Positions 13,710 through 61,253 of a DNA stretch of 64,000 bases are shown here, one piece after another. The position numbers were made by a program, and so were the translations under genes. The notes under the pieces were generated by a model. That model was not told where the DNA came from. It did not search any database and worked only from the letters and a program-made list of their open reading frames with translations. The DNA comes from Flavisolibacter sp. (GTDB lineage: Bacteria > Bacteroidota > Bacteroidia > Chitinophagales > Chitinophagaceae): NCBI GenBank assembly GCA_028288675.1, contig JAQBNG010000219.1, forward strand, positions 1 through 64,000, in the 5' to 3' direction. The first letter of the stretch is position 1. The number at the start of each line of letters is the position of its first letter.

Positions 13710-13732
13710 ATGCCCCGCTGATAGCGGGGCAT
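13710..13732. terminator. Bidirectional terminator
   Basis: A perfect 10-bp G+C-rich stem (13710-13719 with 13723-13732) with a 3-base loop, flanked by A/T on both sides. It separates the convergent hydrolase and FAS1 lipoprotein genes. Confidence 0.88.
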
Positions 13733-13756
13733 ATTTTATAGCAGGCAATCGTAAAG

Positions 13757-43730: not shown

Positions 43731-45416
43731 TCACTTCACCTGCAATAAGTCTGCTTTAGATAACCAGCCTTTAGATGTTTGTCCTTCGTGATTTTTGTAG
43801 ACGACATAAATAAAACCATCTTTTTCATCCAATGGTTTTAGTACAGCATTATTCCAATGAGTGATAAACGCCTGCCGTTTTGTAGTTTCATCAGGCTCAT
43901 CGTGGAAGTAAGCTTTGTTACGCACCTTGTACCGGGAACCTCCCGCATCATTTTCTTCATCAGTATTGTCACCGGCAGGCGTTGTTTCTTCTTTTATGAC
44001 CGCAACCTGTTTTGCTGCTCCTGGATTTTTTTGTGCATCCGCTTTAGCTTTTTGTCTGACAACGATTAAAGAATCAGCCACCTCTTTTTTTCGCTCCCGG
44101 CTTGTGACCTTTTTTATAGAGCTACTGTTGTCAGGACGCCTGGCTGTATTGGCGTCATTTGCTACCGAAGCCGAATCACCACCAGGTACGATGGTACCGG
44201 TTTGGGCACTACTTACAACTGATTTGTTGGCAAGCATACTATATACAGCCAGGCATCCAACCAGGAAAGCTATAACCAGCACTGCTGTAAATGCAGACCT
44301 TGACACAGTTTTCTTGTCGCTATGACCAGTTAATGCTGATGGCCGCCTGATAGTTGTTTTAAAAGCCTGCAATTCGCTATCCTGCTTCAAAACAATTGCT
44401 TTTAAGTCTTCTAATTCCTCCTCCTTTCTTTGCAATTCCGCTTCTTTATTATTAAGCAGGGCTCGCCATTTTTTATCCTCGCCCTTTACCAGCCCAAGGA
44501 CTTCGGCCGTATGTATCCGGTGGTGAGAAATAAAATTGTGTAGCTCCATTCCATTAGCATACCGGTCTTCAGTCTTCTTTTGAAGACATTTATGGATCAC
44601 AGAAATAATCCATTCCGGGACCTGCATTTCCCAGGCCCTTTGTTCTGCAGTCCAATCAGCAGGGAGATTTATTCTGCGAAGTGCAAGTGCATCCGGGGGC
44701 TCCATTTCCATGTGTGCCACCATTACTTTATTCCGGGCCGTTTCGCTGCCACCATTTAAAGGAAAGGGAACCACACCTGCAACCAATTCGTAAAGTACGA
44801 TGCCGAAACTATACACATCGGTTTCAAAATACATCCTGCCTTCATTCTGTTCCGGGGCCATAAATTCAATAGCGCCTGCATGCCGCAAAGACGATCTTCT
44901 TTCTTCATCTGATAAAATAGCCAGGCCGAAATCAAGGAGAACATAATTACCTGTCTGCTGGTTGTATTTTACGTTGTTGCTTTTAATATCTCCATGTTTT
45001 ACCTCCAGCTTGTGACAATGTGCAAGCGCATGTGATAACTGGTCAGCAACTTTAATAATTTCCTTGATGGTAAAAACGGGAGAGTGCGGGGGCTTCAGCA
45101 ATTCGCCTAAATCAGGGCCTTCAATAAATTCCATTTCAATATAAGGGAAGCCGCCTGTTTCGCTTATACCGGAACTCAAAATTTTTACAATATTCGGATT
45201 AGGTACCTCGCCTACCCTTTGAAGTTTTTTTACTTCATTAATAAAATCACGGTAATGCTTATTTTCTTCATCCTGTGAAAAAATGGGTGTAGGCAATAAT
45301 TTTATAGCGGTAATAATCTCGCCTACCCGCCTTCCCTTATAAACAGACCCCTGGCCGCCGGATTTAATGGCGCCCATGTTTTCAAGGCCTTCGGATATGG
45401 TAAATACTTTTGACAT
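43731..45416 (-). CDS. Membrane-anchored Ser/Thr protein kinase (PknB-like)
   Basis: 561 residues. Kinase domain ~8-300: glycine loop GGQGSVYKG (20-28), Lys39 in AIKLL, catalytic HGDIKSNN (His141, Asp143), DFGLA (162-166) and MAPEQ. HGD replaces HRD, so it is a non-RD kinase. A coiled coil (~320-352) precedes one membrane helix (~375-395, AFTAVLVIAFLVGCLAVYSM). The extracytoplasmic part is Ser/Lys/Asp-rich, then ends in an SH3-like domain (~500-561, FIYVVYKNHEG, KGWLSKADL) that may sense the wall. It is the last gene of the SEDS-PBP/PP2C/FHA operon, where it would phosphorylate Thr sites read by the FHA proteins. Confidence 0.93.
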   Translation of the reverse strand: MSKVFTISEGLENMGAIKSGGQGSVYKGRRVGEIITAIKLLPTPIFSQDEENKHYRDFINEVKKLQRVGEVPNPNIVKILSSGISETGGFPYIEMEFIEGPDLGELLKPPHSPVFTIKEIIKVADQLSHALAHCHKLEVKHGDIKSNNVKYNQQTGNYVLLDFGLAILSDEERRSSLRHAGAIEFMAPEQNEGRMYFETDVYSFGIVLYELVAGVVPFPLNGGSETARNKVMVAHMEMEPPDALALRRINLPADWTAEQRAWEMQVPEWIISVIHKCLQKKTEDRYANGMELHNFISHHRIHTAEVLGLVKGEDKKWRALLNNKEAELQRKEEELEDLKAIVLKQDSELQAFKTTIRRPSALTGHSDKKTVSRSAFTAVLVIAFLVGCLAVYSMLANKSVVSSAQTGTIVPGGDSASVANDANTARRPDNSSSIKKVTSRERKKEVADSLIVVRQKAKADAQKNPGAAKQVAVIKEETTPAGDNTDEENDAGGSRYKVRNKAYFHDEPDETTKRQAFITHWNNAVLKPLDEKDGFIYVVYKNHEGQTSKGWLSKADLLQVK

Positions 45417-45475
45417 TTGTGAAATTAGATTGCAGATACCAAAACAAAGTTGCGTCCTGATTTATTTCTTACCTG

Positions 45476-46258
45476 TTAGCTATTCTCGTAAGTAAATTTC
45501 AAGAGGGCAGTTTCCCCCAAAACAATCTGGTCGCCTTCGGCTAAATGGTGCCCCACCTTTGTAGTTTGCAAGCGTATGATGGCACCATCTTCTGCTTGCA
45601 CTTTTATTTTATTACGTGGAGGTACCCCACCTTCATCAGGATATAAAAAAAAGGCGCCGGTGTCTTTATTCCACTCGATATGTGCGTGTTGGCGGCTAAT
45701 AAATTTGTTGCTTTTATCCTGGCTTGCTGATGAAAAAGCGATGGTGTTCTCCCGCATAAAACCTTCATCTGTTTGCACCTTTTTTTCGCGGCCAATACAT
45801 ACCTTCCCTCCTGTTGATGTCAGCGTATATTTTTCTTTATCGGCTTCTCCGTTTACGACTTGTATGTAGGCCGTTGTTTGTGTTGTAAGTACCGGTTGCT
45901 TTCGGGTAGAAACGTGCAAGGCAAACGGCAGGTCTTTTGCTTTTACAGCTTCTGCCGGCAATTCCTCTACAAACAAAGTCTCCATCGTCCAAGTTGGTGG
46001 TAGCTCAATAGCATAGTCATCAGCAATGCGTTGGACCTCTTCTCTGAATTTGCTTTCATCATCTATAAACAAGGCCGCTTCGTACAAATGGCGCTCATCT
46101 GCCGGAGGCGCTAAAAAAGCTTGCAGCCCTTTAATATTTGCACCCTCACCACCTTCCCAACGTTTTAATTGGTCTTTAATAAATTGTAACAAGCTTTGCC
46201 TGAGCGCCTTCACATCAGGGGCAGCTGCATCTCCTTTTTGTTTAAATAAATCGAACAT
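45476..46258 (-). CDS. FHA domain protein
   Basis: 260 residues, no membrane helix. The N-terminal part (~1-115) is an alpha/beta domain (LRQSLLQFIKDQLKRWEG, FREEVQRIADDYAIELP) similar in position to the N-domain of actinobacterial FhaA. The C-terminal FHA domain has KVCIGREKK (glycine-arginine of the phosphothreonine pocket), KFISRQHAHIEW (Ser-Arg-x-His) and GGVPPRNKIKV. FHA domains bind phospho-Thr peptides, so this is a likely reader of the kinase encoded 59 bases downstream. It lies 57 bases after the SEDS-PBP gene, in the same operon. Confidence 0.9.
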   Translation of the reverse strand: MFDLFKQKGDAAAPDVKALRQSLLQFIKDQLKRWEGGEGANIKGLQAFLAPPADERHLYEAALFIDDESKFREEVQRIADDYAIELPPTWTMETLFVEELPAEAVKAKDLPFALHVSTRKQPVLTTQTTAYIQVVNGEADKEKYTLTSTGGKVCIGREKKVQTDEGFMRENTIAFSSASQDKSNKFISRQHAHIEWNKDTGAFFLYPDEGGVPPRNKIKVQAEDGAIIRLQTTKVGHHLAEGDQIVLGETALLKFTYENS

Positions 46259-46315
46259 AGTACTGGTGAGCTTATGGCCCTTTTATATTATTCAAGAAAC
46301 AGTCCAAAATCTTTG

Positions 46316-49300
46316 TTAGTTCAATTTTTCCCCAAAGCTTTTAATGTAGCCATACTTCTGCAAAACAGGTATAATGTGAGAACCCGCCAAACGAACTGCA
46401 ACGCTGGAGCCCTTGGTTTTTTCGATACGGATACACACCACAGTATGACCAGGACCTTTTCCCTTTGGTGCAAAAAAGACATACCACCCATCATTGATCC
46501 TCTCATCTTTTAAAATACGTTCCGGGGTACCGGTTTTGCCTGCCACAAAAATGCCGAGGCGTTCTTTTTTCCCTGCACTTTGCTCTTTCATATACTTTGT
46601 CATTAAGCCGGCAGCGGCGGCATCTTTCAAAAGAGGAACACCTTGTTCAAGACGAAGTGTTGAATCACTGACTTTCATCACATACCGGCTATGCATCATT
46701 ACACCGCCATTGGCAATGCCGGATGCTACACGAGCCATTGCTGCAGGTGTTGCAATAAGTTCGCCTTGCCCCCATGCCATGCCTGAAATTCCACGGCCCC
46801 TGGTGCGGCGTATATTGTTTTTGTTGTAAGAGCGGATACTGGCAAACTCTGTCTTACGCCAGGTATCCATCCACTTTTGCTGCTGGCCGTTATTAGCTAA
46901 ATCACCATCATAAAAATAACCGCCAACGCCGCGAAGAAATAAGCCGGCCTTCATATAAATGTTTGCCATCTCCTCCTCTAATCTTTCTTCATTAGCCAAG
47001 CGGATAAAGAAGGGATTGTTGGAGCGAACAATACCACGTTGGATAGAAATATTTCCTGATTCATCGGGCTCTTCTCCCTTCACCCGGATCAGATCGCCGG
47101 GACGAACATTGATCGTTTTTTTAGATGCGGCCTCTGTTCCTAATTTGTTAAACGCCGCGGACGCCGTTATTAATTTAGCAGTGGAACCGGGTTGCGACGC
47201 ATAAGCAAAGCCAATGTCTTTTGTAGTGATAAAATAAGGAAGCCGGTTTAACTCTGAATTTGTCAAAGTCATTCGATCCATATCAGTTACCGGTGGCGCC
47301 GGGTACATGGCCGATGCCAAAACATCGCCTGTATTATCTTCCATCACCACCACAGAAATACGGCTGTTCTTCAAGGTATCTAAAGTTTGTAATGCTGCCT
47401 GGAGGTCCGTTTGTAAAGCAGCATCAATTGTCATTTGCACATCGCGGTTCTGGTCTTTGAACGAGTCCACGGCTTTACTGTTGATACCTGCTAAAAGTAA
47501 AGGAGCAAGCGCACTAAAATCTCTTTTGGCTACCGTCATTTCTGTTTCTGTTCTTGGCAAAAAGCGGTTTTCTCTAAAGCGGCTTGCAATTACATTAAAT
47601 TTTGTTTCCGGTGCAGGAAACCCCCTTAATTCCGCCATATGTTCGTACTCGGCGAAATAGCCGTTAGTACCACCCATAAATGCGCCTGTGTTCATATCAC
47701 CTGTCCAGAAAAATGCCTGCTCGTAAAAAGGATAATACCGGTCTAAACGCTTGCGGGATAAAGATTGCAGGTTAACCGGATCTAGTCCTGCAGCTATAAG
47801 TGAATCCTGTTGTTGCAGAAATGAATCAGGATCACCTGTTGCCAAAACCCTTCCTTTTCTATCCAATAAATTGCCGGCACCCAAGCGGTTCATTAAAATC
47901 GCTATGCGGGGATTATAGCTGAACATTCTTGCGCCGCTCCTATCTGCAACCAAGGCCGGTTGCGTTACCCATCTACTGTTATTAAAAAGATACTGCCCAA
48001 CATTTATCCCTAACAAAACAACACCCACTAAAGCAGCAACCAATGCAGGCATAATATTACGGTCTTGCTGACGGGAGATAAACTTCATTTGCACCGCCGA
48101 ACCTTGCACAATAGAAGCTGACAATAAAAAGCCGGCAGCCATCATGTTGGCGATAAGCGATGAGCCACCATAACTCATAAACGGCAGCGATACACCCGAT
48201 AATGGCAGGGCGCCAACAGAGCCTCCGGCAATCAAAAGAAACTGTACAAATGTGGAGATGCCTATTCCGGCGCAGAGATAAAAAAGAAATGGTGTTCCTG
48301 TTTGCCGGCCAATTAAAATAGCACGATGCACGTATAAAAGGAAAACAATAAACACACAAATAATTCCGGCCCAACCAAACTCTTCTCCCATTGATGGAAG
48401 GATCATATCCGTATGCGCTTCAGGAATTGTTTTAGCAAAGCCTTCGCCGATACCCTGGCCTTCTACACCACCGCTGCTCATGGCCCACAAGCCATTTGCA
48501 ATCTGGTCGCCACCAAATACTTCGTTATCCCATGGGTTCTGCCAGATAGCCTTTCTGTCTACCAGCCGTTGAACTGGACCGGGAAAAACCTTTTCGATGT
48601 AAGGCACCTTATCTAACAAAAGAAAACCGGCCATTACTACCATAAGCATGATGGCTGATTCGGTAAGTTGCTTTTTTATAAATAAGATGGCAAGAAGTAA
48701 TAAGCCAACGGTGATACCTGTTGCCAATAAAATATCGTTACCGGTAAGCCAGATGGAAACTGCATAAACGGCGGCGGTTCCTACAGCATACATAAAGTCG
48801 CCCCGCGAAAAGGAAAACAGGATAATAAATGTAAAACAAGCTACCATAGCCGGGCCTAAATCTCCAAGAATCAAAAACAGAAGTATAGTACCCAGAATGG
48901 CTATCAAAGCAAAACCAAAGAACTGCCAGCGCTTTTGCCAGCGGCCGTATTCAGAGATAAATCTTTCATTGGTGGCAAAAAATCCGGCAAGGAAAACAAC
49001 GATCAAAAATTTTACGATCTCGCTGGGCTGAAAACCAAAGAGGTTCACTTTTACACCACTGCCTTCAGGTCCTGTACCAAATAAAATGGTCATTAGCAAT
49101 AAGCCCATTGCGCCAATTGCCCACGGCCAGCCATTAGCTGCTTTGCTATTTCTTTTAAATACGAACAGGCGAAATAAACCCGAATCGGTAGTAAACTTTC
49201 GCAGGTTAAAAAGAAGAATAATAAAGATGCCTGCAATGCCGCCACCAAAATAAAAGATAGAACTCCTGCCGAGGAAGCGGTCACGCAAAGGATCTTGTAA

Positions 49301-50383
49301 TGACAATAAGGTTAAGAATGATATACCTGTCAGTAACATCACAACCGGCAGTAGCAGTTGATCAGCCGACGGAAACCGAAAGGAAAGGAAAAGATGCAAT
49401 AGGAAAAATCCTGCAAAGAAGGAAATCATTATGATCCAATACCATTTTTCCACGTCGTCCGGCGTGCGTACAATGAGTGCTTTTTCCTTGCGCAGGTTAT
49501 TAAAATCGCGGGTAGCAAAAAGCTTTATTTTATGCGGTGATTGTATAAAACTAAAGGACGCATCTTCTTCCAGGCCCTGTACGCCTTTTGCGCCTCCAAA
49601 TTGAAAACCAGGCTTTAGCGGAAGCACTTCAAAAGCCTTATCTGTTGGCAGGCCTTCAAAAGAAAATTTACCGTTGTTATCTGTGCGGGCATAAGCCAGT
49701 AAAGAAATTAATTGACGATTATTAGAAGAATCAACATGATAAACTTTCAGTAGTGTAGTTGATGAATCTCGTACCGTACGGCCCTCATCTTCTACGGCAT
49801 CGCTATACAAACTATCCTGCGGCAAAATCATTTGAAGCCGCACTAAAACGCCGCTGCTAACCGACTTGTCCTGCGTTTGAATAGTACCACTAATTGCATG
49901 CTTTCCTAAGCCTACATTTACTGTGGGAGGCAAGGTGGGCGGCGCTGTTTTTTCTCTGTCGAAACGCAGGGAATCGTTACCGCTAAAACCAATTAATAAC
50001 CTGGCCACTTTGGCTCTTTTACGAAAAGCTTCACCTCCGCTTGTGTAGGCATCTTCTGTACTTAATTCAAAAGATCTTTTATTAAGTTCACCAATATTAT
50101 CCATTTCCTTGATACCCTGAAACCCTTGTTCTGCAACGCTTCTGATCAACTCTATATCCTGCGGGTCTTCAAAATAAAATCCTTTTTGCAGTAAACCTGC
50201 CAGGTTCGCGGCCCTATCCCCTTTGTTTAAATTGATCATGGAACCATCGCTTAACCGCTTCGGTACCTCTTTAAAATCTTTCTGCAATACGGAGAATAAT
50301 TGCAGAAAAAGATAAAGCAGTACTGCACCAATAGCGAGTAAAAAAATGCGTTCCAAATTCCTGCTGCGAATCGCTGAAGCCAT
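46316..50383 (-). CDS. SEDS glycosyltransferase (RodA/FtsW) fused to class B PBP transpeptidase
   Basis: 1355 residues in one frame. Helix 1 (~12-30) leads to a periplasmic domain (~31-315) containing a carboxypeptidase-regulatory-like fold (AISGTIQTQDKSVSSGVLVR, ARTDNNGKFSFEGLP). Ten or so helices (~316-765) form a SEDS polymerase with GIGEGFAKTIPEAHTDMIL, where Asp659 is the conserved catalytic Asp. A further helix (~779-800) is the bPBP anchor, then the pedestal motif NLLDRKGRVLA (Asp841) and a transpeptidase with Ser1067 in GSTAK, SNN at 1121 and Lys1283 in KTGT. Both activities look intact: it would polymerise and crosslink glycan from lipid II. It starts 7 bases after the PP2C stop. Confidence 0.95.
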   Translation of the reverse strand: MASAIRSRNLERIFLLAIGAVLLYLFLQLFSVLQKDFKEVPKRLSDGSMINLNKGDRAANLAGLLQKGFYFEDPQDIELIRSVAEQGFQGIKEMDNIGELNKRSFELSTEDAYTSGGEAFRKRAKVARLLIGFSGNDSLRFDREKTAPPTLPPTVNVGLGKHAISGTIQTQDKSVSSGVLVRLQMILPQDSLYSDAVEDEGRTVRDSSTTLLKVYHVDSSNNRQLISLLAYARTDNNGKFSFEGLPTDKAFEVLPLKPGFQFGGAKGVQGLEEDASFSFIQSPHKIKLFATRDFNNLRKEKALIVRTPDDVEKWYWIIMISFFAGFFLLHLFLSFRFPSADQLLLPVVMLLTGISFLTLLSLQDPLRDRFLGRSSIFYFGGGIAGIFIILLFNLRKFTTDSGLFRLFVFKRNSKAANGWPWAIGAMGLLLMTILFGTGPEGSGVKVNLFGFQPSEIVKFLIVVFLAGFFATNERFISEYGRWQKRWQFFGFALIAILGTILLFLILGDLGPAMVACFTFIILFSFSRGDFMYAVGTAAVYAVSIWLTGNDILLATGITVGLLLLAILFIKKQLTESAIMLMVVMAGFLLLDKVPYIEKVFPGPVQRLVDRKAIWQNPWDNEVFGGDQIANGLWAMSSGGVEGQGIGEGFAKTIPEAHTDMILPSMGEEFGWAGIICVFIVFLLYVHRAILIGRQTGTPFLFYLCAGIGISTFVQFLLIAGGSVGALPLSGVSLPFMSYGGSSLIANMMAAGFLLSASIVQGSAVQMKFISRQQDRNIMPALVAALVGVVLLGINVGQYLFNNSRWVTQPALVADRSGARMFSYNPRIAILMNRLGAGNLLDRKGRVLATGDPDSFLQQQDSLIAAGLDPVNLQSLSRKRLDRYYPFYEQAFFWTGDMNTGAFMGGTNGYFAEYEHMAELRGFPAPETKFNVIASRFRENRFLPRTETEMTVAKRDFSALAPLLLAGINSKAVDSFKDQNRDVQMTIDAALQTDLQAALQTLDTLKNSRISVVVMEDNTGDVLASAMYPAPPVTDMDRMTLTNSELNRLPYFITTKDIGFAYASQPGSTAKLITASAAFNKLGTEAASKKTINVRPGDLIRVKGEEPDESGNISIQRGIVRSNNPFFIRLANEERLEEEMANIYMKAGLFLRGVGGYFYDGDLANNGQQQKWMDTWRKTEFASIRSYNKNNIRRTRGRGISGMAWGQGELIATPAAMARVASGIANGGVMMHSRYVMKVSDSTLRLEQGVPLLKDAAAAGLMTKYMKEQSAGKKERLGIFVAGKTGTPERILKDERINDGWYVFFAPKGKGPGHTVVCIRIEKTKGSSVAVRLAGSHIIPVLQKYGYIKSFGEKLN

Positions 50384-50390
50384 GCTTGTT

Positions 50391-51788
50391 TTATTTTCGG
50401 GTCGAATCTTTTTTAATAAGAAAAGTATCTCTGAGAGTTCCGGATAATGTATCGTTAAGTGGTAATAAAATACTTTGCTGTACCGGCACTATGCTGTTTT
50501 GAAAAACCACATTTTTTAGCTGCAGTCCGCCGCTTTGCGTTGCTATCGCGATTTCAAAATCTTTAAAAGTCATGTTTTCCAGCAACAGGTATTTATTATT
50601 GGCAGTTATATAAAATGCAGGGCCGGTGTATGACGAATCTGCCTGGAGTACAAGCCCTGCGCCATCTATATGCAGTGAATCCTGGCGAATGAAAATCGTA
50701 TCGCCAAGCACGGTAATCTTGCCAAAAACAGAGTCCGTTAACATCAGCGTTCGGGGCGCAATGGCTACACTGTCAGCCAATAGTTTTTCGGCAGCGTTTG
50801 GCGCTTTTTGTACAATTGTCTGAAGCGGTTTTGTTAGTTCTTTGTTCTTTGTCCATAACCACCAGCAACCTCCTGCAAGCAGCAGTGATAATAACGTAAG
50901 TATCCAAACTGCATTGCTGCTTTTTTGCTTTGAAACCTCTATTGGCACTTCCTTGCTTTGACCAATATCGGTGATTGCAATTGGTTCATTAGCCTGAGTC
51001 TTTTTTGTGATGGCAGGTTTTGTTGCTTCTAATTTTAGTGGCTTTTTGTTATTCCTTACCAGCACAGCCGTGATGTTATCTTTTCCGCCAGCACTGTTAG
51101 CGGCCTCAATTAATATATTTCCTTTTTCCGGTAAACTTTTAGCCGACAGAAGTATCGCTGTCATCTCTTCATTGTTTACCATATCCGTTAAGCCATCACT
51201 ACATAACAACAATAAATCGCGGGGTAAAAAAGGCGATGAACCGGTTTCGATATAATCTGAATCCAAAGCAATATTGCCATCAAATCCCAATGCTTTATTG
51301 ATCTCATTTCGTTTGGGGTGAAGCATAGCCTCTTTTTCGGATAGCCGTCCGCTGTCTTCTAAAAAGCCTACGAAAGAATGGTCTTTTGTCACCTTAACCA
51401 ATGAACCGTCACGCAACAGGTACATGCGGGTATCGCCTACATGAGCGTAATAAAATTGATTCGCTTCAACATCCACTAAAGCCACAGTTAACACACAGGC
51501 CATGTTTGCGCTGCGGCCTTCTTTTTGTTTCTCTAAATAGATGTTCTGATTAGCCTGCCATACTGCTTTTCTCAAAGCCTGGGTAGCATCAGTAAAGGGT
51601 TTTTGCATTTCCCTGAGAATAGTTTCCTGTGCAATAGCCGCCGCTATTTCTCCCCCCTCATAACCGCCCACGCCATCAATAACACAGGCAAGCACCCAAC
51701 CGTTAGGCACCTTTTGAGCAATAAAAGTATCTTCATTATTATCCCTAAGCTTGCCCGTATCGGTAATGCCAAAAAAATTATCCGCCAT
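50391..51788 (-). CDS. PP2C-type Ser/Thr phosphatase with membrane helix and extracytoplasmic tail
   Basis: 465 residues. Phosphatase domain ~1-245: GKLRDNNED (metal Asp), VIDGVGGYEGGE (Asp38-Gly39), LLCSDGLTDM and GGKDNITAVLV are the metal-binding motifs of PP2C. A membrane helix lies at ~290-312 (AVWILTLLSLLLAGGCWWLW). The outer ~150 residues are strand-rich (VFGKITVLGDTIFIRQDSLH, LENMTFKDFEIAIATQSGGL) and look like a short parallel beta-helix. It would reverse the kinase's phosphorylations. Its start overlaps the stop of the 33-residue peptide gene. Compared with PstP, the helix is present but the outer part is larger and different. Confidence 0.93.
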   Translation of the reverse strand: MADNFFGITDTGKLRDNNEDTFIAQKVPNGWVLACVIDGVGGYEGGEIAAAIAQETILREMQKPFTDATQALRKAVWQANQNIYLEKQKEGRSANMACVLTVALVDVEANQFYYAHVGDTRMYLLRDGSLVKVTKDHSFVGFLEDSGRLSEKEAMLHPKRNEINKALGFDGNIALDSDYIETGSSPFLPRDLLLLCSDGLTDMVNNEEMTAILLSAKSLPEKGNILIEAANSAGGKDNITAVLVRNNKKPLKLEATKPAITKKTQANEPIAITDIGQSKEVPIEVSKQKSSNAVWILTLLSLLLAGGCWWLWTKNKELTKPLQTIVQKAPNAAEKLLADSVAIAPRTLMLTDSVFGKITVLGDTIFIRQDSLHIDGAGLVLQADSSYTGPAFYITANNKYLLLENMTFKDFEIAIATQSGGLQLKNVVFQNSIVPVQQSILLPLNDTLSGTLRDTFLIKKDSTRK

Positions 51789-51879
51789 TCTTTTTATGTG
51801 TGGTTTTTATTTCAGCAAAATGGGCAATAAAGAGGCAAATACAAATGCCCAACAGTACCAAAGAAATAATTGCTGTCAT
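51778..51879 (-). CDS. 33-residue single-pass membrane peptide in the kinase/PBP operon
   Basis: ATG at 51879, stop TAA at 51778-51780. The ATG lies 2 bases after the stop of the FHA-like gene, and the frame overlaps the PP2C start by 11 bases, so it fills the only gap in a tightly packed operon. The product starts MTAIISLVLLGICICLFIAH, a single hydrophobic helix of about 18 residues, then FAEIKTTHKKNGG, a basic tail. By the positive-inside rule the C-terminus would be cytoplasmic. No family is known to me. The spacing is what supports it as a real gene; it could instead be a leader that couples translation of the PP2C gene. Confidence 0.6.
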   Translation of the reverse strand: MTAIISLVLLGICICLFIAHFAEIKTTHKKNGG

Positions 51880-51881
51880 AA

Positions 51882-52892
51882 TCAGGGTTTAAAAATATTG
51901 ACACCTACAATACCATTGAGTAAGATGCGTGAATTAAAGGGCAGTTCGGTCCATTGTGGCGAGGCATCTTCACTCCGGGCTATTTCTTTTTCATTCACCA
52001 CCGTCTTTTCCCCAAACGAAGCGAGGTGTAACTTATTATCATCACGGTTAAAACGGATTCTTAAATGCGGGGTATTCACCCAGTCTGATGGAATACGAAA
52101 AAAGTTTTCCGTTTCACTTTTTTCTTCTTTGCCTGATACTACAATATCATCGGCCTGCATAAAATATTCTATTTTTTTGCCGGCATATTCTTTATCAGGA
52201 ATTATTGTTTCTAACCGCGCAAAAGCATTACGGTTGACAGGTTCTAATCCCCCGGGTCCCCTTGTTAATGGAGAAGCACCGCCCGGGGTACTTTTAACCT
52301 GTCGCTCATCATATTTAAAATCCTCTCGGAATGGCACTTCAAAGTAGCCATCACTGTAAAAATGAAAGTCTTTTAATATATCAGGATTAATGTCAAAGGT
52401 TTGCGCAATACCCGTCTGGCGTGGAATATAAGTCACACGGAGATTCTCGTCTTTTTGTTCTGACTTATTACTGTCCGGTAAAAGTTTACCAATGAAACTT
52501 AAATCACCTTGCGGGTAATCCGGGTTGGCTACAAATCGAAAAATCCACCGGTTGGCAGACGGCTCAACGGTTTTGCCAAGTGCCCTGTATTCTTTTAATA
52601 ATTCATAAAACTTTTTTACTGACTCATGTACAATCAAACCGAAAATCCCTTTTTTATTGTCCATGAAAACCTTGTAATCATCGGGGTTGAAGCAGATGAT
52701 ATACTCATGATAAAAAACTACGCGGCCCGCAAAAGAAAGCTGGCCAATAGATTCCTTAAATTTTTGAATGATGTATTGATAGACATTATCTGAGGTCAAC
52801 ACAGGCACGGTTTGCTCGTCGGGCTCTCTGCCGCTTTTTACAAAAAAGTCGTGAAGGCCAATACGCTGCCAAAAGGTTTGCTTTGATTTCAT
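51882..52892 (-). CDS. FHA-like protein with FhaA-type N-domain (degenerate FHA)
   Basis: 336 residues, cytosolic. The N-terminal ~130 residues (IIQKFKESIGQLSFAGRVVF, YIICFNPDDYKVFMDNKKG, FGLIVHESVKKFYELLKE) resemble in layout the N-domain of FhaA. The C-terminal ~80 residues (HLRIRFNRDDNKLHLASFGE, KTVVNEKEI, LPFNSRILLNGIVGVNIF) have the strand order of an FHA domain. The usual GRxx and SxxH phosphopeptide residues are not visible, so phospho-Thr binding is doubtful. It is the first gene of the operon, 2 bases ahead of the 33-residue peptide. Homology to FhaA is inferred mainly from context and strand pattern. Confidence 0.65.
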   Translation of the reverse strand: MKSKQTFWQRIGLHDFFVKSGREPDEQTVPVLTSDNVYQYIIQKFKESIGQLSFAGRVVFYHEYIICFNPDDYKVFMDNKKGIFGLIVHESVKKFYELLKEYRALGKTVEPSANRWIFRFVANPDYPQGDLSFIGKLLPDSNKSEQKDENLRVTYIPRQTGIAQTFDINPDILKDFHFYSDGYFEVPFREDFKYDERQVKSTPGGASPLTRGPGGLEPVNRNAFARLETIIPDKEYAGKKIEYFMQADDIVVSGKEEKSETENFFRIPSDWVNTPHLRIRFNRDDNKLHLASFGEKTVVNEKEIARSEDASPQWTELPFNSRILLNGIVGVNIFKP

Positions 52893-53234: not shown

Positions 53235-55361
53235 ATGAAGATGACTCAATTTCCCGGCTTCCCTTTTCCATTGGGTGCCAACTGGGATGGGCAAGGTATC
53301 AACTTCGCCCTATACAGCGAGAACGCAACTGCTGTCGAACTTTGCCTTTTTTCGGAACCGGATCTGGAAAGAGAATCCTTACGCATACGCATTAATGAAC
53401 GCAGTAATCACGTATGGCATGTATATATTCCTGGGCTTCTTCCCGGCCAGCTTTATGGCTACAGGGTTTATGGTCCATATGAACCTCAAAACGGACATCG
53501 CTTTAATCCTAACAAGCTATTAATTGATCCATACGCAAAAGCTATCTCCGGCACTATAAAATGGAATGATGCACTTTTTGGGTATGAAGTTGGACACCCT
53601 GACGAAGACCTGAGCTTTAACGATGAAGACAGTGCGCCGTATGTAGCGAAGTCGGTTGTTATTGACCCCCGCTTCGATTGGGAAGGCGATAAACTCCCAC
53701 GCATTCCCTACCACAGAACTATTATTTATGAGGCGCATGTAAGAGGTCTTACAAAAACGCATCCCGGTATACCGGAAGAGCTTCGCGGTACATATGCTGC
53801 TATCGGTCATCCTGTAACAATTCAATATTTAAAAGAGTTAGGCATTACCGCCATTGAGCTAATGCCTGTGCATCATTTTTTGCAGGATAAGTTTTTAGTG
53901 GATAAAGGCCTTTCTAACTATTGGGGCTATAACACCATTGGGTTTTTTGCGCCGGATATACGCTATGCCAGTCAGAAAGAACATGGTGCGCAAGTGAATG
54001 AATTTAAACAGATGGTAAAGGAACTTCATAAAGCAGGTATTGAAGTGATCCTCGATGTAGTGTATAATCATACGGCAGAAGGAAACCAGATGGGGGCCAC
54101 CGTGTCGTTTCGTGGTGTTGACAATGCGGGTAACTACCGCCTTACAGATGATAAGAGGTATTACATGGATTATACAGGCACCGGCAACACGCTAAATGCC
54201 AAAATGCCAAGTGTAATGCGCCTGATCATGGACAGCCTGCGCTACTGGATCTTAGAAATGCACGTGGATGGTTTCCGTTTTGATCTGGCAGCATCATTAG
54301 CCAGGGAGCTTCATGCGGTTGACCGGTTGGGCTCCTTTTTTCAGATCATGCACCAGGATCCAATCATCTCCCAGGTGAAATTAATTGCAGAACCATGGGA
54401 TATTGGCGAAGGCGGTTACCAGGTTGGTAATTTCCCACCGGGATGGGCGGAATGGAATGGCAAGTACCGCGATTGCATTCGTGATTACTGGCGCGGTGCC
54501 GATAGTATGTTGGGTGAGTTTGCACAACGCTTTACCGGCAGCCCCGATCTCTACCAGGAAGACTATCGCAGCCCCACGGCCAGCATTAATTTTATTACAG
54601 CGCATGACGGATTTACGCTGAATGACCTCGTATCGTATAACGAAAAACATAATGAGGCCAACGGCGAAAATAATAACGACGGTGAAAGTCATAACCGCAG
54701 CTGGAATTGTGGTGCAGAAGGGGATACAGATGATGCGGGGATTATTGCGTTGCGGCATAAGCAGCGCCGTAACTTGTTAACTACGCTTTTCTTCTCACAA
54801 GGAGTGCCAATGTTGGTAGCGGGTGATGAGTTAGGGCGAACACAAAAAGGAAATAATAACGCCTATTGCCAGGACAATGAACTCTCATGGATCAACTGGG
54901 AAAATGTAGACACGGAGTTATTAACCTACACTAAAAAACTTATTCATTTTTGTAAAAGACATCCTGTTTTTAACAGGCGACGGTGGTTTAAGGGACAGCC
55001 AATAAAAGGCATTGGCCTGGAAGACATTGCCTGGTTTAAACCCGATGGAGCGGAAATGAGTGAAGAAGCCTGGCAGCAGGATTATGCCAAGAGCTTAGGC
55101 ATTTACTTAAATGGACGCGGCATACATTCCGTAGGTCCAAAAGGCGAGCAGATTGTGGACGATAATTTTTACCTGATTTTCAATGCGCATCATGATCCCC
55201 TATCGTTTAAACTGCCGCCAAAAAAATTTGGTATGAAGTGGACGAAGGTATTAGACACCAACTTGAATTACCTGGAAGAAACAGGCGAAAAACACAAGGC
55301 CGGTGACGAAGTAAATGTAGAAGCCCGTTCCGTGGTAGTAATGAAAAACGAAATTGGTTAG
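53235..55361 (+). CDS. glgX: Glycogen debranching protein (isoamylase type)
   Basis: A 708-residue GH13_11 enzyme. CBM48 ~5-100 (FPLGANWDGQGINFALYSEN, GYRVYGPYEPQNGHRFNPN) precedes the barrel: EVILDVVYNHTAEGNQMG, nucleophile Asp in VDGFRFDLAAS, Glu in LIAEPWDIGEGGYQVGNFPP and Asp in FITAHDGFTLNDLVSYNEKH. The ENNNDGESHNRSWNCGAEG block is diagnostic for GlgX/isoamylase. It removes alpha-1,6 branches from glycogen or limit dextrin and frees linear maltodextrin. treZ starts 3 bases after its stop and treY-malQ follows, so its products feed trehalose formation. Confidence 0.95.
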   Translation: MKMTQFPGFPFPLGANWDGQGINFALYSENATAVELCLFSEPDLERESLRIRINERSNHVWHVYIPGLLPGQLYGYRVYGPYEPQNGHRFNPNKLLIDPYAKAISGTIKWNDALFGYEVGHPDEDLSFNDEDSAPYVAKSVVIDPRFDWEGDKLPRIPYHRTIIYEAHVRGLTKTHPGIPEELRGTYAAIGHPVTIQYLKELGITAIELMPVHHFLQDKFLVDKGLSNYWGYNTIGFFAPDIRYASQKEHGAQVNEFKQMVKELHKAGIEVILDVVYNHTAEGNQMGATVSFRGVDNAGNYRLTDDKRYYMDYTGTGNTLNAKMPSVMRLIMDSLRYWILEMHVDGFRFDLAASLARELHAVDRLGSFFQIMHQDPIISQVKLIAEPWDIGEGGYQVGNFPPGWAEWNGKYRDCIRDYWRGADSMLGEFAQRFTGSPDLYQEDYRSPTASINFITAHDGFTLNDLVSYNEKHNEANGENNNDGESHNRSWNCGAEGDTDDAGIIALRHKQRRNLLTTLFFSQGVPMLVAGDELGRTQKGNNNAYCQDNELSWINWENVDTELLTYTKKLIHFCKRHPVFNRRRWFKGQPIKGIGLEDIAWFKPDGAEMSEEAWQQDYAKSLGIYLNGRGIHSVGPKGEQIVDDNFYLIFNAHHDPLSFKLPPKKFGMKWTKVLDTNLNYLEETGEKHKAGDEVNVEARSVVVMKNEIG

Positions 55362-55364
55362 GCA

Positions 55365-57194
55365 ATGGAGGCGATAAGCATTAATAAAAGAGGCATAGGT
55401 GTTAACTTTTTAGATGATGGAAAAGCGTCGGTTATAGTATGGTCGCCGACCGCAAATAAAGTTGTGTTGGTAGTGAACGAAGAAGAAATAGAATTAAGTA
55501 AGAAAGATTATGGATATTGGGAGAATGTCACCCATAAGATTAAGGAAGGCAGCCGTTATAAAATAAGTGTTGACGACAAAGATCCTCTCCCCGACCCTGC
55601 TTCTCTTTCACAACCTGATGGTGTGCATGCCCAATCGGAAGCGATCAACCCGGCAAATTTTAACTGGAGTGACGGAGCCTGGAAAAACATTCCGTTGGAA
55701 GAATACATCATCTATGAATTACACACCGGTACATTTACCGATGAAGGCACATTTGCAGGTATTGAAGCAAGGCTTGACTATCTAAAAGAACTTGGTATAA
55801 CGGCTATTGAAATTATGCCGGTGGCGCAGTTTCCGGGAAGCCGTAACTGGGGTTATGATGGTGTGTTTCCATTTGCTGTGCAGGATTCTTACGGAGGTGC
55901 AAAAGGTTTGCAGGATCTCGTAAATGCCTGCCATCAAAAAGGGCTTGCTGTTATTTTAGATGTAGTGTATAATCACCTGGGGCCGGAGGGTGCTTACCTC
56001 GGCGCTTACGGTCCATACTTTACCGATAAATATAAAACGCCCTGGGGACCGGCTATCAATTTCGATGATGAATATTGTGATGGTGTACGCCGCTATTTTA
56101 TAGAAAACGCTTTGATGTGGTTCAGGGATTTTCACATAGATGCTTTGCGGTTAGATGCTGTACATGCGATCAAAGATTTAAGCCCTGTCCATATTCTGCA
56201 GGAAATAAAATTACATGTGGACCGGTTGATGGAAGAAACCGGGAGAACACATTATCTGATTACAGAACTTGATTTAAATGACACCCGTTTCATTAAGCCA
56301 ATTGCAAATGGAGGCTATGGAATGGATGCCCAATGGATAGATGAATTTCACCATGCCTTACGCTCAACTGCCACAGGGGAAAGCACAGGCTATTACTCCG
56401 ACTTTTCCGGAATTGAGCACTTGGCCAAGGCCTACAAAGATGCTTATGTCTATGATGGCCAATGGTCGCCGCACCGCAAGAAAACCTTTGGTGTAAAAGC
56501 CGCGGAAGCAGGGGGCAGTCAATTCATCGTCTTTTCGCAAAACCACGACCAGGTAGGCAACCGTATGTTGGGCGAACGCACCAGCACGTTGGTAAGTTTT
56601 GAAATGCAGAAGTTGATGGCTGGAGCCGTATTGGTATCTCCCTTTTTGCCTATGTTTTTTATGGGCGAAGAATGGAGTGAACGAAATCCTTTTCTCTACT
56701 TCGTTTCGCATGGCGACAAAGATTTATGCGAAGCCGTACGTAAAGGCCGCAAAGAAGAATTTGCCGCGTTTCATTTAGAAGGCGAAGCACCAGACCCTGT
56801 ATCGGAAGAAACCTTCCTGAATTCAAAATTGCAATGGAACTTAATTGGAGACAGCCATCATAAATTGATGTTTGATTATTATAAGACCTTCATCAGCCTG
56901 CGTAAAAAACATCCGGCTTTAAAGCATCTTAATAGAAAAGCAATAAGCGTTGAAGTTGATAAGGAAGCCAAAACCTTAGTACTTCACCGGTGGCATAATG
57001 ACGCAGCTATTTTCGCTTTTCTGAATTTTTCGAAAGAACAACAAACTATCCCATTTGCAAATGCCGGCAGTTTCACGATCATTTTAGATTCAGCAGATAA
57101 AAAGTGGAATGGCTCAGACACTTCAATCGTAAATCAAAACTCTATTTCAATCCAACCCGAAAGCCTCATTTTACTATCAACCAATAATTATTAA
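55365..57194 (+). CDS. treZ: Malto-oligosyltrehalose trehalohydrolase
   Basis: A 609-residue GH13 enzyme. A short N-terminal beta domain (~10-95, DGKASVIVWSPTANKVVLVV) precedes a barrel with the TreZ pattern WGYDGVFPFAVQDSYGG, DVVYNHLGPEGAYLGAYGPY and FTDKYKTPWGPAINFDD. Catalytic residues lie in DALRLDAVHAI (Asp), LITELDLNDTRF (Glu) and SQNHDQVGNRMLGER (Asp). It cleaves maltooligosyl-trehalose to release trehalose. It is 3 bases behind glgX and 30 bases ahead of the treY-malQ fusion, which makes its substrate: a complete glycogen-to-trehalose route (TreY/TreZ) in one transcript. Confidence 0.95.
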   Translation: MEAISINKRGIGVNFLDDGKASVIVWSPTANKVVLVVNEEEIELSKKDYGYWENVTHKIKEGSRYKISVDDKDPLPDPASLSQPDGVHAQSEAINPANFNWSDGAWKNIPLEEYIIYELHTGTFTDEGTFAGIEARLDYLKELGITAIEIMPVAQFPGSRNWGYDGVFPFAVQDSYGGAKGLQDLVNACHQKGLAVILDVVYNHLGPEGAYLGAYGPYFTDKYKTPWGPAINFDDEYCDGVRRYFIENALMWFRDFHIDALRLDAVHAIKDLSPVHILQEIKLHVDRLMEETGRTHYLITELDLNDTRFIKPIANGGYGMDAQWIDEFHHALRSTATGESTGYYSDFSGIEHLAKAYKDAYVYDGQWSPHRKKTFGVKAAEAGGSQFIVFSQNHDQVGNRMLGERTSTLVSFEMQKLMAGAVLVSPFLPMFFMGEEWSERNPFLYFVSHGDKDLCEAVRKGRKEEFAAFHLEGEAPDPVSEETFLNSKLQWNLIGDSHHKLMFDYYKTFISLRKKHPALKHLNRKAISVEVDKEAKTLVLHRWHNDAAIFAFLNFSKEQQTIPFANAGSFTIILDSADKKWNGSDTSIVNQNSISIQPESLILLSTNNY

Positions 57195-57224
57195 TCATTC
57201 ATTATTAATTATTAATTCTTCATC

Positions 57225-60200
57225 ATGTTCAATCCTATCTCAACATATCGCATTCAGTTTCATAAAGGATTCACCTTTCAAAATTTCCAGGCTATCATTC
57301 CCTACCTGCAGCAGCTGGGTGTAACCACCATTTATGCTTCTCCCATTTTTGAGGCAGTCCCCGGTAGCGTTCATGGCTACGACTGTACTAATCCTTTAGT
57401 CATCAATCCAGAAATTGGAACACTTGATGAATTAAGGGCGATCAGCAAACAGCTAAAAGAATACGGCATGGGGTGGCTGCAGGATATTGTTCCAAATCAC
57501 ATGGCATATCATCACAATAACAAGTGGTTGATGGATGTACTGGAGAATGGTGAAGCATCGGAGTATGCGCCCTTCTTTGATATTACCTGGAACAGCCGTA
57601 ACAACGAAAAATTGATGGTTCCTTTTCTAGGCAAAACTTTAAATGAAGTCATTAATGATGGAGAACTAAAAGTTATCATACAAGATGACAAGCCAATGTT
57701 TGATTATTACGGCGCTTGCTATCCATTGTCTGAGGCATCCATCAAACAATTTATTACAGCAGATCACGACATCAACAATGATAAGGCAGCTTTGCTTCAA
57801 TTAGCGCAGTCGCAACACTATCGCCTATGCCACTGGCAAGAAACAGATAACCAAATCAACTACCGTCGGTTCTTTACTGTAAATGGTTTGATCTGTGTGA
57901 ACATCCATAACGAGAACGTGTTTAATAAGCATCATTCCTTTATTAAGCAATTAGTAGACGAAGGCATATTTCAAGGCCTGCGTATTGACCACATCGACGG
58001 TTTGCAAAACCCAACTGAATATTTGCATCGTCTAAGAAAGTTGGCAGGCGATGAGGTCTATATCACCGTAGAAAAGATATTAGAGCCGGGTGAAGCATTA
58101 CCCTCCTATTGGCCTTTGCAAGGCAGTACCGGCTATGATTTTTTATCAGACAGCAATAACCTTTTTACTACTAAAACTGCGGAGAAAACCTTTACCGACT
58201 ATTATCAGAATCTTACTGCTAATTATGCTTCCATCCACCAACAGTTGCGGGATAAAAAAGCGCATATCTTATCGGAACACATGAATGGCGAATTGGAAAA
58301 TTTATATCGCTTATTTCGCAGTCTGAATGTGGTTGACAAAAGGGCAACGTCCGGCATTCCCACAGATGATTTAAAATCGGCATTAGGTGAGTTCTTAATT
58401 CAATGCCCTGTGTATCGCTATTACGGTTCCAGCTTTCCTTTGAATAACGAGGAAGAAGCTGCCATTAAAAAAATACTGTCTCATTTAAAAAAAAGTGGAG
58501 AATCAAAAGAAGCTGTAGCCATTTTAGAAACCATCTTTCTGCACAAACCACATGAGGGAAATAAGGAATTAAATAACCGCATAGCGCAATTCTATATGCG
58601 TTGTATGCAGTTTACCGGGCCCCTAATGGCTAAGGGCGTAGAGGACACTTTGATGTACACATACAACCGTTTCATCGGGCATAACGAGGTTGGCGATTCC
58701 CCCGAAGCGTTTGGACTCCATCCGCAGGAATTTCACCAGCGTATGCTCAGGCGCCAGCAACAATGGCCACTAAGTATGAGCGGCACATCTACACATGATA
58801 CAAAACGTGGTGAGGACGTAAGGGCACGGTTAAATGTGCTGACTGACTTAGAAGATGAGTGGCTTGCTAAGGTGGAAGAATGGCGGGAACTAAACCAGGA
58901 TCTCAAAGGAGATGGCGCACCTGATGGCAATGACGAATACTTAATTTACCAGGCACTGATCGGGCACTATTCAACAGACGATGAGGATGATTTTAAAGAC
59001 CGGGTGCAAGAGTACCTCCAAAAAGCATTACGGGAAGCAAAAATCCATTCTAACTGGACGACACCTGATGAGGAATATGAGTCCGCAACCAAAGCATTCG
59101 CTGTTGCCTTATTAAATAAAGAAAGGCCATTCTGGAAAAGTTTCGAGGAGTTTATAGGTAAGGTATATCAGCATGGTATGATCAATTCTCTTTCGCAGGT
59201 TTTATTAAAAACAACGTTGCCAGGCGTACCCGATGTTTACCAGGGTTGCGAGTTATGGGATCTTAGTTTTGTTGATCCTGACAACCGCCGTGCCGTTGAT
59301 TTTGAAAAGCGTAAAGCTTTCCTCGATAGCTTTGAAAATGGTGGCGATGATCTGTTACCCACCCTTTGGAAAGAATCAAGTGGAGCTATAAAACTTTGGC
59401 TTACGCAACAAATGCTGGCTATCAGGAAAACAGATGCCGGGTTGTTTTCAGAAGGCGATTATTTACCACTGAAAACAGAAGGAAAGTACAAAGAACATGT
59501 TTTTGCATTTGCCAGAAAGCAAGGTGAAAAAACGTACTTACTCGCACTGCCACTTCATACTGCTACTTTATGTAAAGAAGATAGTAGCTTCTTTAAAATT
59601 AACTGGGAGGATACCCGTATTGTTTTGCCTAAAGAATTTGGTGGCTTTAGCGATTTACTAAGTGGCAGCAGCATTGCAAAAAGCGAAGGGTTACTGGCAA
59701 AAAACCTGTTCAAAAAATTCACTGTTGCCATACTAAAAGGCAGGGAGGCAGCTAAGCAAAGAGGCGCAGGAATTTTAGCACATATAACATCCTTGCCTTC
59801 TCATTTTGGCGTTGGCGATCTAGGGCCTGGAGCAAAATCGTTTGCCGATTTCCTGCACCGCAGCGGGCAAAAATATTGGCAACTGTTACCCCTCAATCCT
59901 ACAGAGGAAGGGCAAGGCTATTCACCTTACAGTGCCTTATCAAGCAAAGCCGGATGGCCGCTATTAATTTCACCGGAAGCTTTAGTAAAAGAAGGTTTGC
60001 TGAAGCCCGATGAGTTAACCGCTCATCATCTGCCAAATGAATCAAATGTTGATTATGCAGTATCAGGAACTGAAAAAGAAGCATTATTAGCAACGGCATT
60101 TGAAGCATTTTTAGCAGCACCTGATTCTCCATTGCAAAAAGACTTTAACCAGTTTTGTGAAAAAGAAAAATCCTGGTTAGATGATTTCGCCCTCTTCACA

Positions 60201-61253
60201 TTTCTAAAAAAAGAACACAAAGGTTTGCCCTGGTATGAGTGGCCATCGGAATTAAAAATGCGTGAAGAAGAAGCGCTGAAAACTGTTAGAGTAAACAACT
60301 GGGAAACGATTAAAAAAATAAAATGGAACCAGTTCATTTTTACAAAACAATGGAGCAGCTTAAAAACCTATTGCAATAACCGCAACATAAAGCTCATTGG
60401 CGATATGCCGTTTTATGTATCGTACGACTCGGCAGATGTATGGGCAGACCAGGAGCTTTTTGCTTTAAATGAAGCTGGTGAACGTTCTGGCATCGCCGGT
60501 GTGCCTCCCGATTCTTTCAGCGCTGATGGCCAGTTGTGGGGCATGCCCACCTTTAATTGGGAGCGAATGAAAGAGGACGGCTACCAATGGTGGATTCAAC
60601 GCCTTCGCAAAAACATGGAACTCTTCGACATCACAAGGCTTGACCACTTCAGGGCTTTTGAAGCCTACTGGAAGGTGCCGGCCGGCGAAGAAACAGCGAA
60701 GAACGGAACGTGGGTACAAGGGCCGGCAAGTGATTTCTTTAAAGCTATGCAAAAGGAGTTTGGCGCATTACCGTTTGTAGCGGAAGACCTGGGGGATATA
60801 AATGAAGCTGTTTTAAATCTTCGCGATGAATCTAATCTCCCCGGAATGAAAGTGCTGCAATTTGCCTTTGGCGATGACATGTCTCAGTCGGACTATATAC
60901 CGCACAACTATGAAAAAAACTTTTTGGTTTATACTGGTACACACGATAACAACACGACCGTTGGCTGGTGGCGTACAGAAGCGGATGACAGCATGAAGCA
61001 ACGTATAAAAAAATACTCAGGTTGCGATGTGGACGAAAAAAATGTACATATGACATTAGGAAGGCTGGCGTACAGTTCCGTAGCCGACATTGCCATACTA
61101 CCGGTGCAGGATGTATTAGGTTTAGATGAAACGGCGAGAATGAATGTGCCATCATCTGCTAATAATAATTGGGCTTGGCGGTTGGTGCAAGGGCAATTAA
61201 ATGGAAACGTGGAGAAGATGTTGAGCGAATGGGTGCAGTTGTACAATAGATAA
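57225..61253 (+). CDS. Fused malto-oligosyltrehalose synthase (TreY) and 4-alpha-glucanotransferase (MalQ)
   Basis: 1342 residues in one frame. TreY part ~1-840: STYRIQFHKGFTFQNFQAII, then Asp255 in LRIDHIDG, Glu283 in VEKILEPGE and Asp525 in STHDTKRGED; it turns the reducing end of maltodextrins into a trehalose unit. MalQ part ~845-1342: RGAGILAHITSLPSHFGVGD, YSPYSALSSKAG, nucleophile Asp1140 in ITRLDHFRAF, Glu1187 in VAEDLGD and Asp1241 in GTHDNNTTVGWW; it re-shuffles alpha-1,4 chains. Both parts have usual length and complete active sites. The joint lies near residue 840-848. The MalQ part could lengthen short dextrins left by TreY/TreZ so they can be reused. Confidence 0.95.
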   Translation: MFNPISTYRIQFHKGFTFQNFQAIIPYLQQLGVTTIYASPIFEAVPGSVHGYDCTNPLVINPEIGTLDELRAISKQLKEYGMGWLQDIVPNHMAYHHNNKWLMDVLENGEASEYAPFFDITWNSRNNEKLMVPFLGKTLNEVINDGELKVIIQDDKPMFDYYGACYPLSEASIKQFITADHDINNDKAALLQLAQSQHYRLCHWQETDNQINYRRFFTVNGLICVNIHNENVFNKHHSFIKQLVDEGIFQGLRIDHIDGLQNPTEYLHRLRKLAGDEVYITVEKILEPGEALPSYWPLQGSTGYDFLSDSNNLFTTKTAEKTFTDYYQNLTANYASIHQQLRDKKAHILSEHMNGELENLYRLFRSLNVVDKRATSGIPTDDLKSALGEFLIQCPVYRYYGSSFPLNNEEEAAIKKILSHLKKSGESKEAVAILETIFLHKPHEGNKELNNRIAQFYMRCMQFTGPLMAKGVEDTLMYTYNRFIGHNEVGDSPEAFGLHPQEFHQRMLRRQQQWPLSMSGTSTHDTKRGEDVRARLNVLTDLEDEWLAKVEEWRELNQDLKGDGAPDGNDEYLIYQALIGHYSTDDEDDFKDRVQEYLQKALREAKIHSNWTTPDEEYESATKAFAVALLNKERPFWKSFEEFIGKVYQHGMINSLSQVLLKTTLPGVPDVYQGCELWDLSFVDPDNRRAVDFEKRKAFLDSFENGGDDLLPTLWKESSGAIKLWLTQQMLAIRKTDAGLFSEGDYLPLKTEGKYKEHVFAFARKQGEKTYLLALPLHTATLCKEDSSFFKINWEDTRIVLPKEFGGFSDLLSGSSIAKSEGLLAKNLFKKFTVAILKGREAAKQRGAGILAHITSLPSHFGVGDLGPGAKSFADFLHRSGQKYWQLLPLNPTEEGQGYSPYSALSSKAGWPLLISPEALVKEGLLKPDELTAHHLPNESNVDYAVSGTEKEALLATAFEAFLAAPDSPLQKDFNQFCEKEKSWLDDFALFTFLKKEHKGLPWYEWPSELKMREEEALKTVRVNNWETIKKIKWNQFIFTKQWSSLKTYCNNRNIKLIGDMPFYVSYDSADVWADQELFALNEAGERSGIAGVPPDSFSADGQLWGMPTFNWERMKEDGYQWWIQRLRKNMELFDITRLDHFRAFEAYWKVPAGEETAKNGTWVQGPASDFFKAMQKEFGALPFVAEDLGDINEAVLNLRDESNLPGMKVLQFAFGDDMSQSDYIPHNYEKNFLVYTGTHDNNTTVGWWRTEADDSMKQRIKKYSGCDVDEKNVHMTLGRLAYSSVADIAILPVQDVLGLDETARMNVPSSANNNWAWRLVQGQLNGNVEKMLSEWVQLYNR

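Follow-up and report, generated by a model that had tools for sequence, protein, structure and literature searches.

The 64,000-nucleotide stretch of Flavisolibacter sp. DNA analyzed here (contig JAQBNG010000219.1, positions 1 to 64,000; the window) contains a block of six minus-strand genes encoding a fused SEDS and class B penicillin-binding protein (bPBP), a membrane Ser/Thr kinase, a PP2C phosphatase, two forkhead-associated (FHA) proteins and a micropeptide. With moderate confidence, we read this block as a dedicated third peptidoglycan synthase of the genome that has a phospho-switch of its own; common descent with the actinobacterial fhaA-fhaB-pstP-rodA-pbpA-pknA-pknB cluster is probable. 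Natural SEDS-PBP fusions and the actinobacterial cluster are already known, and the block is a variant on these. The six genes are listed below, with transmembrane (TM) positions in the block proteins taken from hydropathy only.

52892-51882, minus strand: FHA1 gene, an open reading frame (ORF) of 336 aa with an N-domain (~28-135) and a degenerate FHA domain (219-336)
51879-51778, minus strand: micropeptide gene, 33 aa, single TM, between FHA1 and PP2C
51788-50391, minus strand: PP2C phosphatase gene, 465 aa; cytosolic domain, TM ~293-311, extracytoplasmic tail
50383-46316, minus strand: SEDS::class B PBP gene, 1355 aa in a single chain
46258-45476, minus strand: FHA2 gene, 260 aa, with canonical FHA residues
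45416-43731, minus strand: membrane Ser/Thr kinase gene, 561 aa; TM ~378-396, extracytoplasmic C-terminal tail

The ORF calls, Pfam matches and an AlphaFold model of FHA1 agree with the original prediction that six close-packed genes encode these parts, and its intergenic gaps of 2, -11, 7, 57 and 59 bases were reproduced exactly from the ORF coordinates. The G+C content of the block genes (0.41-0.44) is like that of the window (0.416), and thus there is no sign of recent import here. Promoter and terminator scans were uninformative: 22 sigma-70 promoter-like sites were found against 19.1 in shuffles, and 12 terminator-like sites against 12.0. A scan for TTTG/TAnnTTTG, a Bacteroidota promoter consensus, gave two matches in the window, none of them at the block, against a chance mean of 5.0.

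The SEDS::PBP protein matched both FTSW_RODA_SPOVE (7e-45) and Transpeptidase (3e-21) of Pfam on one chain. Its layout is TM1, an extracytoplasmic part, TM2, SEDS (~341-758), a further TM and the class B transpeptidase (1010-1329), with three main parts:

49448..50284, minus strand: N-terminal extracytoplasmic part (residues 34-312), between TM1 and TM2 by hydropathy
48110..49363, minus strand: SEDS glycosyltransferase part (residues 341-758), TIGR02210; putative catalytic Asp659 in HTD
46397..47356, minus strand: transpeptidase domain (residues 1010-1329), PF00905; SxxK Ser1067, SxN 1121-1123, KTG 1283-1285

Residue conservation was counted over length-filtered, distinct family rows, with the window counted once; the rows are related and not independent. 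The HTD aspartate was kept in 91/91 rows, as were SxxK, SxN and the K and G of KTG, whose Thr position held 81 Thr and 10 Ser. The aspartate matches D297 of Escherichia coli FtsW, from the run H295, T296, D297 given in a passage of PMC8765783. An AlphaFold model of residues 156-1355 had a mean pLDDT of 83.4 and a pTM of 0.69, and its PBP half resembled PBP3 structures (VIA Z 35.9, root-mean-square deviation 2.9, 364 aligned) and Mycobacterium tuberculosis PbpA (33.5, 3.4 and 356, respectively). The SEDS profile scored best with FtsW among the sequences of solved structures (131.6 bits; E. coli RodA, 85 bits). CarboxypepD_reg (PF13620) was detected in the N-terminal part of two distant counterparts, at loci L154 and L156.

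The fused protein thus shares the catalytic motifs of both halves and the fold of the PBP half with the RodA-PBP2 and FtsW-FtsI pairs, but its SEDS part scores far under both equivalog cut-offs (TIGR02210 for RodA, 138 vs. 336.7; TIGR02614 for FtsW, 153.2 vs. 337.5) and it forms an extra, third pair. Elsewhere in the genome, a transpeptidase gene adjoins a SEDS gene on contig C96 and another such pair lies on C45; these were assigned as PBP2-RodA and FtsI-FtsW from clade, adjacency and scores. Because separate RodA- and FtsW-type SEDS genes exist in the genome, SEDS::PBP is its third SEDS/bPBP synthase, a putative one by its intact motifs. A natural single-ORF SEDS-PBP fusion is already in print, in a passage of Nygaard et al. 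(2023; PMC10449877) that cites the Rhodococcus RHA1 genome paper. Compared by description only, both join polymerase and transpeptidase in one ORF, whereas the present one is from Bacteroidota, stands in a putative phospho-switch operon and has an N-terminal part.

The block recurs among relatives. Named loci were the best 80 of 240 tblastn candidates, not every one of which need be fused. The closest among these best 80 are in Flavisolibacter longurius and F. nicotianae (Chitinophagaceae), with 78-80% identity in the fused protein, and the titles also include Segetibacter, Ferruginibacter, Mucilaginibacter, Pedobacter and Bacteroidota metagenome-assembled genomes. The core FHA1-micropeptide-PP2C-SEDS::PBP-FHA2 was complete in 74 of the 80 loci, with median gaps of 3, -8, -0.5 and 51 bases, which confirms that conservation of the core order exceeds chance. 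Five of the incomplete six (L063, L072, L097, L106, and L123) are at contig ends, and in L060 the fused gene is present as two ORFs. The core is constant while the kinases vary in number, place and clade: among the 74 complete loci kinases follow the core in 27, precede it in 15 and flank it on both sides in 30, and no kinase was seen in two (L069 and L113), both at a contig start.

Among 58 related genomes, the fused gene was found in 18, own genome included: in 15 of 17 from the same genus, two of 17 from other genera of the family and none of 23 from other families of the order. The two same-genus misses are genomes that are 62% and 78% complete, and in two of the 18 (G004 and G017) the match was cut by contig ends. 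All 15 relatives with the whole fused gene have FHA1, PP2C, SEDS::PBP, FHA2 and at least one kinase in the same order. A micropeptide ORF of at least 30 aa was found in 13 of them; one of the other two has a 29-aa ORF in the named record L062. The gene order of the original prediction is thus conserved among relatives, and on this point it stands. More widely, 15 of 395 genomes drawn evenly over the phylum, again counting the window's own, matched at E<=1e-60; in ten of them the match spanned most of the profile, and in the other five, the deep ones, its middle part. A 137-kb plasmid of Spirosoma oryzicola carries a copy that aligns over 97% of the protein with 38.7% identity, and no other among the 28 plasmid records that matched reached 80% coverage. 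This locus and two other relatives have the rearranged order FHA1-PP2C-kinase-kinase-SEDS::PBP-FHA2.

Local irregularities also occur. In L060, the synthase is represented by two adjacent ORFs (266 + 1159 aa), and in L057 the first kinase by two (201 + 415 aa), each a real split or a sequencing error. In Paraflavisolibacter caeni (L062 / L040), a 1134-aa ORF lies between SEDS::PBP and FHA2 in L040, and there is a 4247-base gap in L062.

The signaling enzymes of the block appear intact. The kinase matched Pkinase (PF00069) at 7e-34, and the family kept the catalytic Asp in 134/135, the DFG Asp in 135/135 and the ATP-site Lys in 127/135 rows. No PASTA domain was detected in the window kinase at E<=1, and its NF033483 score was 142 bits against a cut-off of 450. 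The phosphatase matched PP2C_2 (4e-16) and reached 210 bits with the Stp1/IreP model (cut-off 230). Its six metal-site or motif residues were kept in 82/82 distinct rows of at least 400 aa, a length that leaves out shorter rows, among them L152, L153, and L156. Pfam gave no match in the extracytoplasmic tails of the kinase or PP2C, which by eye are SH3-like and beta-helix-like, likenesses we do not claim. In the Firmicutes PP2C-PASTA kinase pair, as seen in two records, PP2C likewise adjoins a kinase; the kinase there has PASTA, and no SEDS, PBP or FHA is annotated in the stretches of these records. Outside the block, G000 has a second PP2C (104.7 bits) on contig C34 (8099-10121), next to a partial match to a kinase (40.5 bits).

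The two FHA proteins differ in character. FHA2 matched the Pfam FHA model (PF00498) at 2.4e-4, and its phospho-Thr-binding residues R157, S188, R189, and H191 (GR and SRxH present) were kept in 89/89 distinct rows. FHA1 had no Pfam match. Its C-domain has the FHA fold in the AlphaFold model, with a highest VIA Z of 14.5, and 12.0 against the FhaA FHA structure 3oun; this comparison covered the FHA half only and is uninformative about FhaA_N. Searched against PDB sequences, the FHA1 profile had three weak matches, two of them to FHA proteins. The His and Asn were kept in 83/83 distinct FHA1 rows, and the Ser position of SRxH is Thr in the window (48 Thr, 19 Ser, 12 Ala, three Asn and one Lys in the 83 rows). 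Because the Ser-Arg pair is lost, we ruled out that FHA1 reads phospho-Thr in the usual way.

The N-domain of FHA1 points toward FhaA. When this domain was cut out and compared with FhaA_N by hhalign, a match that thus followed selection of the region, the score was 32.1, with a probability of 60% and an E of 8.8e-5 for one comparison; the FhaA_N side comprised six sequences, one of them from outside a cluster. None of 100 column shuffles reached 32.1 (maximum, 21.3). With whole FHA1 and FhaA proteins, hhalign aligned only the FHA half, and the N-part of FHA2 gave no match to FhaA_N.

The FhaA connection is more direct in deep relatives outside the window's class. In L154, an FhaA-type gene that passes the Pfam FhaA_N and FHA models comes first. 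In L156, the order is an FhaA_N gene (21.7 bits, cut-off 25), PP2C, SEDS::PBP and a HEPN-FHA gene, and a search of plasmids with its FhaA protein gave no match. In L158, an FhaA-like ORF, recognized by alignment and by eye, is followed by PP2C::SEDS::PBP in one chain of 1384 aa and then by HEPN-FHA. FhaA_N (PF12401) was detected in four of the 395 Bacteroidota genomes, three over the cut-off, and all four belong to the 15 genomes that have the fused synthase (Fisher p 1.4e-6). In each of the four, one FhaA_N gene closely precedes the fused gene, and in L156 PP2C lies between the two. Among 14 control genomes, FhaA_N was matched only in Corynebacterium glutamicum. The FHA2 counterparts in L156 (10435-11805) and L158 (11479-12753) carry an N-terminal HEPN_Swt1 domain (E 1.5e-25 and 7.4e-22).

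The micropeptide is also a conserved feature. In 81 sequences, including that of the window, a TM helix is followed by a tail; one F and one K are invariant (81/81), and the tail has Ser or Thr in 79/81. The ratio of nonsynonymous to synonymous substitution rates was <1 in 1282/1282 usable pairs, which are not independent. By a fixed criterion, a short hydrophobic ORF follows FHA1 or FhaA in eight of nine rearranged or deep loci, which are likewise not independent (L154, L155, and L157 are near-copies), and base shuffles of the same gaps yield such an ORF in 0.2 to 9%. The ninth locus, L158, has a 30-aa ORF starting on the stop of the preceding gene, found by eye and missed by the criterion. 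In the same place, actinobacterial fhaB encodes, ahead of the FHA domain, a TM helix with a short juxtamembrane stretch. The micropeptide looks like this membrane segment of FhaB, a positional and by-eye likeness between peptides too short for homology statistics.

The comparison with Actinobacteria used three clusters on plasmid records, from Tsukamurella, Nonomuraea, and Nocardia. In the Tsukamurella cluster, DUF3662+FHA, FHA, SEDS, PBP, two kinases and crgA are annotated, and PP2C was found by profile; at plasmid-record locus L169 our own profiles found a lone PP2C. Our own FhaA_N profile matched actinobacterial loci weakly (best E 0.017 and 0.046). The original prediction of the same parts list as in Actinobacteria held in that the parts, and their order on one strand (FhaA-like, TM element, PP2C, SEDS, bPBP, kinase), match, but not for FhaB or the kinase: the Bacteroidota block has a 33-aa TM peptide where Actinobacteria have TM and FHA in one protein, FhaB, and those of its kinases that were scanned are without the PASTA of PknB. 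Further, its SEDS and bPBP are fused, its synthase has an extra N-terminal extracytoplasmic part, and a separate FHA2 gene lies between synthase and kinase, unlike in the actinobacterial cluster. Shared by the two systems are FhaA_N, in the deep Bacteroidota forms, and the grouping of the SEDS with the cluster RodA. In a SEDS tree of 54 sequences, 19 fused sequences and the three actinobacterial cluster RodA proteins were on one side of a branch (support 100/97), with 28 Bacteroidota FtsW/RodA-type and four plasmid SEDS on the other; the tree had no root set. The split survived dropping the two longest rows (SH-aLRT 96). The PP2Cs of all Bacteroidota forms fell into one clade (100/99) that had no particular link to the actinobacterial ones, and the kinases formed clades other than PknA and PknB; both trees carried long-branch warnings.

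Common descent of the two clusters, direction and age aside, is likely from these comparisons. The original prediction had offered transfer or convergent assembly; FhaA_N, the matching gene places and the SEDS tree shift the balance to common descent, by transfer or from an ancient operon, between which the approximately unbiased (AU) tests, the PBP tree and the kinase clades do not discriminate. Several observations weigh against our reading. AU tests did not reject three other SEDS groupings (p 0.125-0.166), and in the PBP tree, built without L199 and L202 of this genome, which the profile did not match, actinobacterial PbpA grouped not with the fused PBPs but with another PBP of the genome (SH-aLRT 85). 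Half of the eight FhaA_N matches (four) lie away from a fused gene, the Pfam FhaA_N model had no match in the fifth deep genome, G233 (L158), and our own profiles found no PP2C or kinase within 18 kb in L154, L155, or L157. The kinase tails are unlike that of PknB, and a second kinase of the genome, on contig C250, has as its sister (98/98) the kinase that lies downstream in F. longurius (L055). The gaps of 57 and 59 bases are space enough for promoters. The alternative that PP2C, FHA, kinase, SEDS and bPBP were united independently in Bacteroidota and Actinobacteria draws on the same AU tests and PBP tree and on the kinase and PP2C trees. It is nevertheless unlikely, because FhaA_N is upstream in four of five deep relatives, the FHA1 N-domain is FhaA_N-like and in the SEDS tree the fused sequences join cluster RodA (100/97); moreover, FhaA_N comes first in the deep loci and is absent from those of the 395 genomes that are without the fused synthase, and the order of the core elements matches.

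Compatible with common descent is an operon older than both phyla, lost in most Bacteroidota and then moved sideways within the phylum, a possibility we hold only tentatively. Both the fused synthase and a short TM ORF also occur in relatives outside the window's class, the spread is patchy (15/395 genomes), a Spirosoma plasmid carries a copy, and the G+C of the block genes gives no sign of recent import; however, one transfer plus spread predicts patchiness equally well, and the tree had no root set. That the phospho-genes serve another purpose, such as phage defense or stress sensing, and are merely co-transcribed with the synthase is improbable, even though the kinase matched the defense kinase models mad6 (E 1.5e-42) and PD-T4-6 (4.5e-42). 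These scores probably reflect the kinase fold, given that 34 models matched at E<=0.01, and among four other block proteins scanned only PP2C matched, weakly (3.1e-6). Furthermore, L158 has PP2C and synthase in one fused chain, and the order is conserved over two families.

Phospho-control of the third synthase is inferred from what Hanks kinases, PP2C and FHA domains are known to do and from the actinobacterial system (PMC3989709 and PMC11898655). With their extracytoplasmic tails, the membrane kinase or kinases would sense the envelope, and they would phosphorylate targets on the cytosolic side close to the synthase, such as FHA1 or FHA2, the micropeptide tail and synthase loops. FHA2 would bind phospho-Thr, FHA1 and the micropeptide may form a scaffold at the membrane, and PP2C would remove the phospho-mark. 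With SEDS and PBP in one covalent 1:1 unit, control would have to act on synthase activity or place and not on enzyme pairing. The best indirect sign that the parts may act together comes from two fusions, each seen once: PP2C::SEDS::PBP in L158 and kinase::FHA in L153. The latter, a kinase with its own C-terminal FHA (13654-15042; Pkinase 1e-45, FHA 3.4e-10), comes from the family relative of the block that diverges most. More speculatively, and in our judgment with the odds against it, the micropeptide may be a free-standing membrane half of FhaB and, in two phyla, an unrecognized obligate subunit of SEDS-bPBP synthases that are under kinase control. Its TM helix and short basic tail would lie on SEDS/PBP helices, with the conserved Ser/Thr as a phospho-docking site; Actinobacteria would have fused it to FHA, and Bacteroidota would supply FHA2 in trans.

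Ser/Thr kinase control of SEDS-bPBP synthases has been studied mainly in actinobacteria and Firmicutes. The block places a seemingly related control system in a diderm phylum, in culturable genera such as Mucilaginibacter, Pedobacter, and Flavisolibacter, and no description of it or of the micropeptide was found in open-licence PubMed Central papers. A synthase of one polypeptide, with the phosphatase in the chain too in one relative, would be a test object for the action of a phospho-switch, and the membrane peptide, small enough for annotation to miss, gives a well-defined candidate where a small subunit is missing.

On the plus strand at 53235-61253 of the window, divergent from FHA1, lie genes for GlgX, TreZ and a 1342-aa TreY::MalQ fusion, a trehalose-from-glycogen set. 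TIGR02401 covers residues 4-837 of the fused chain and malQ residues 843-1342.

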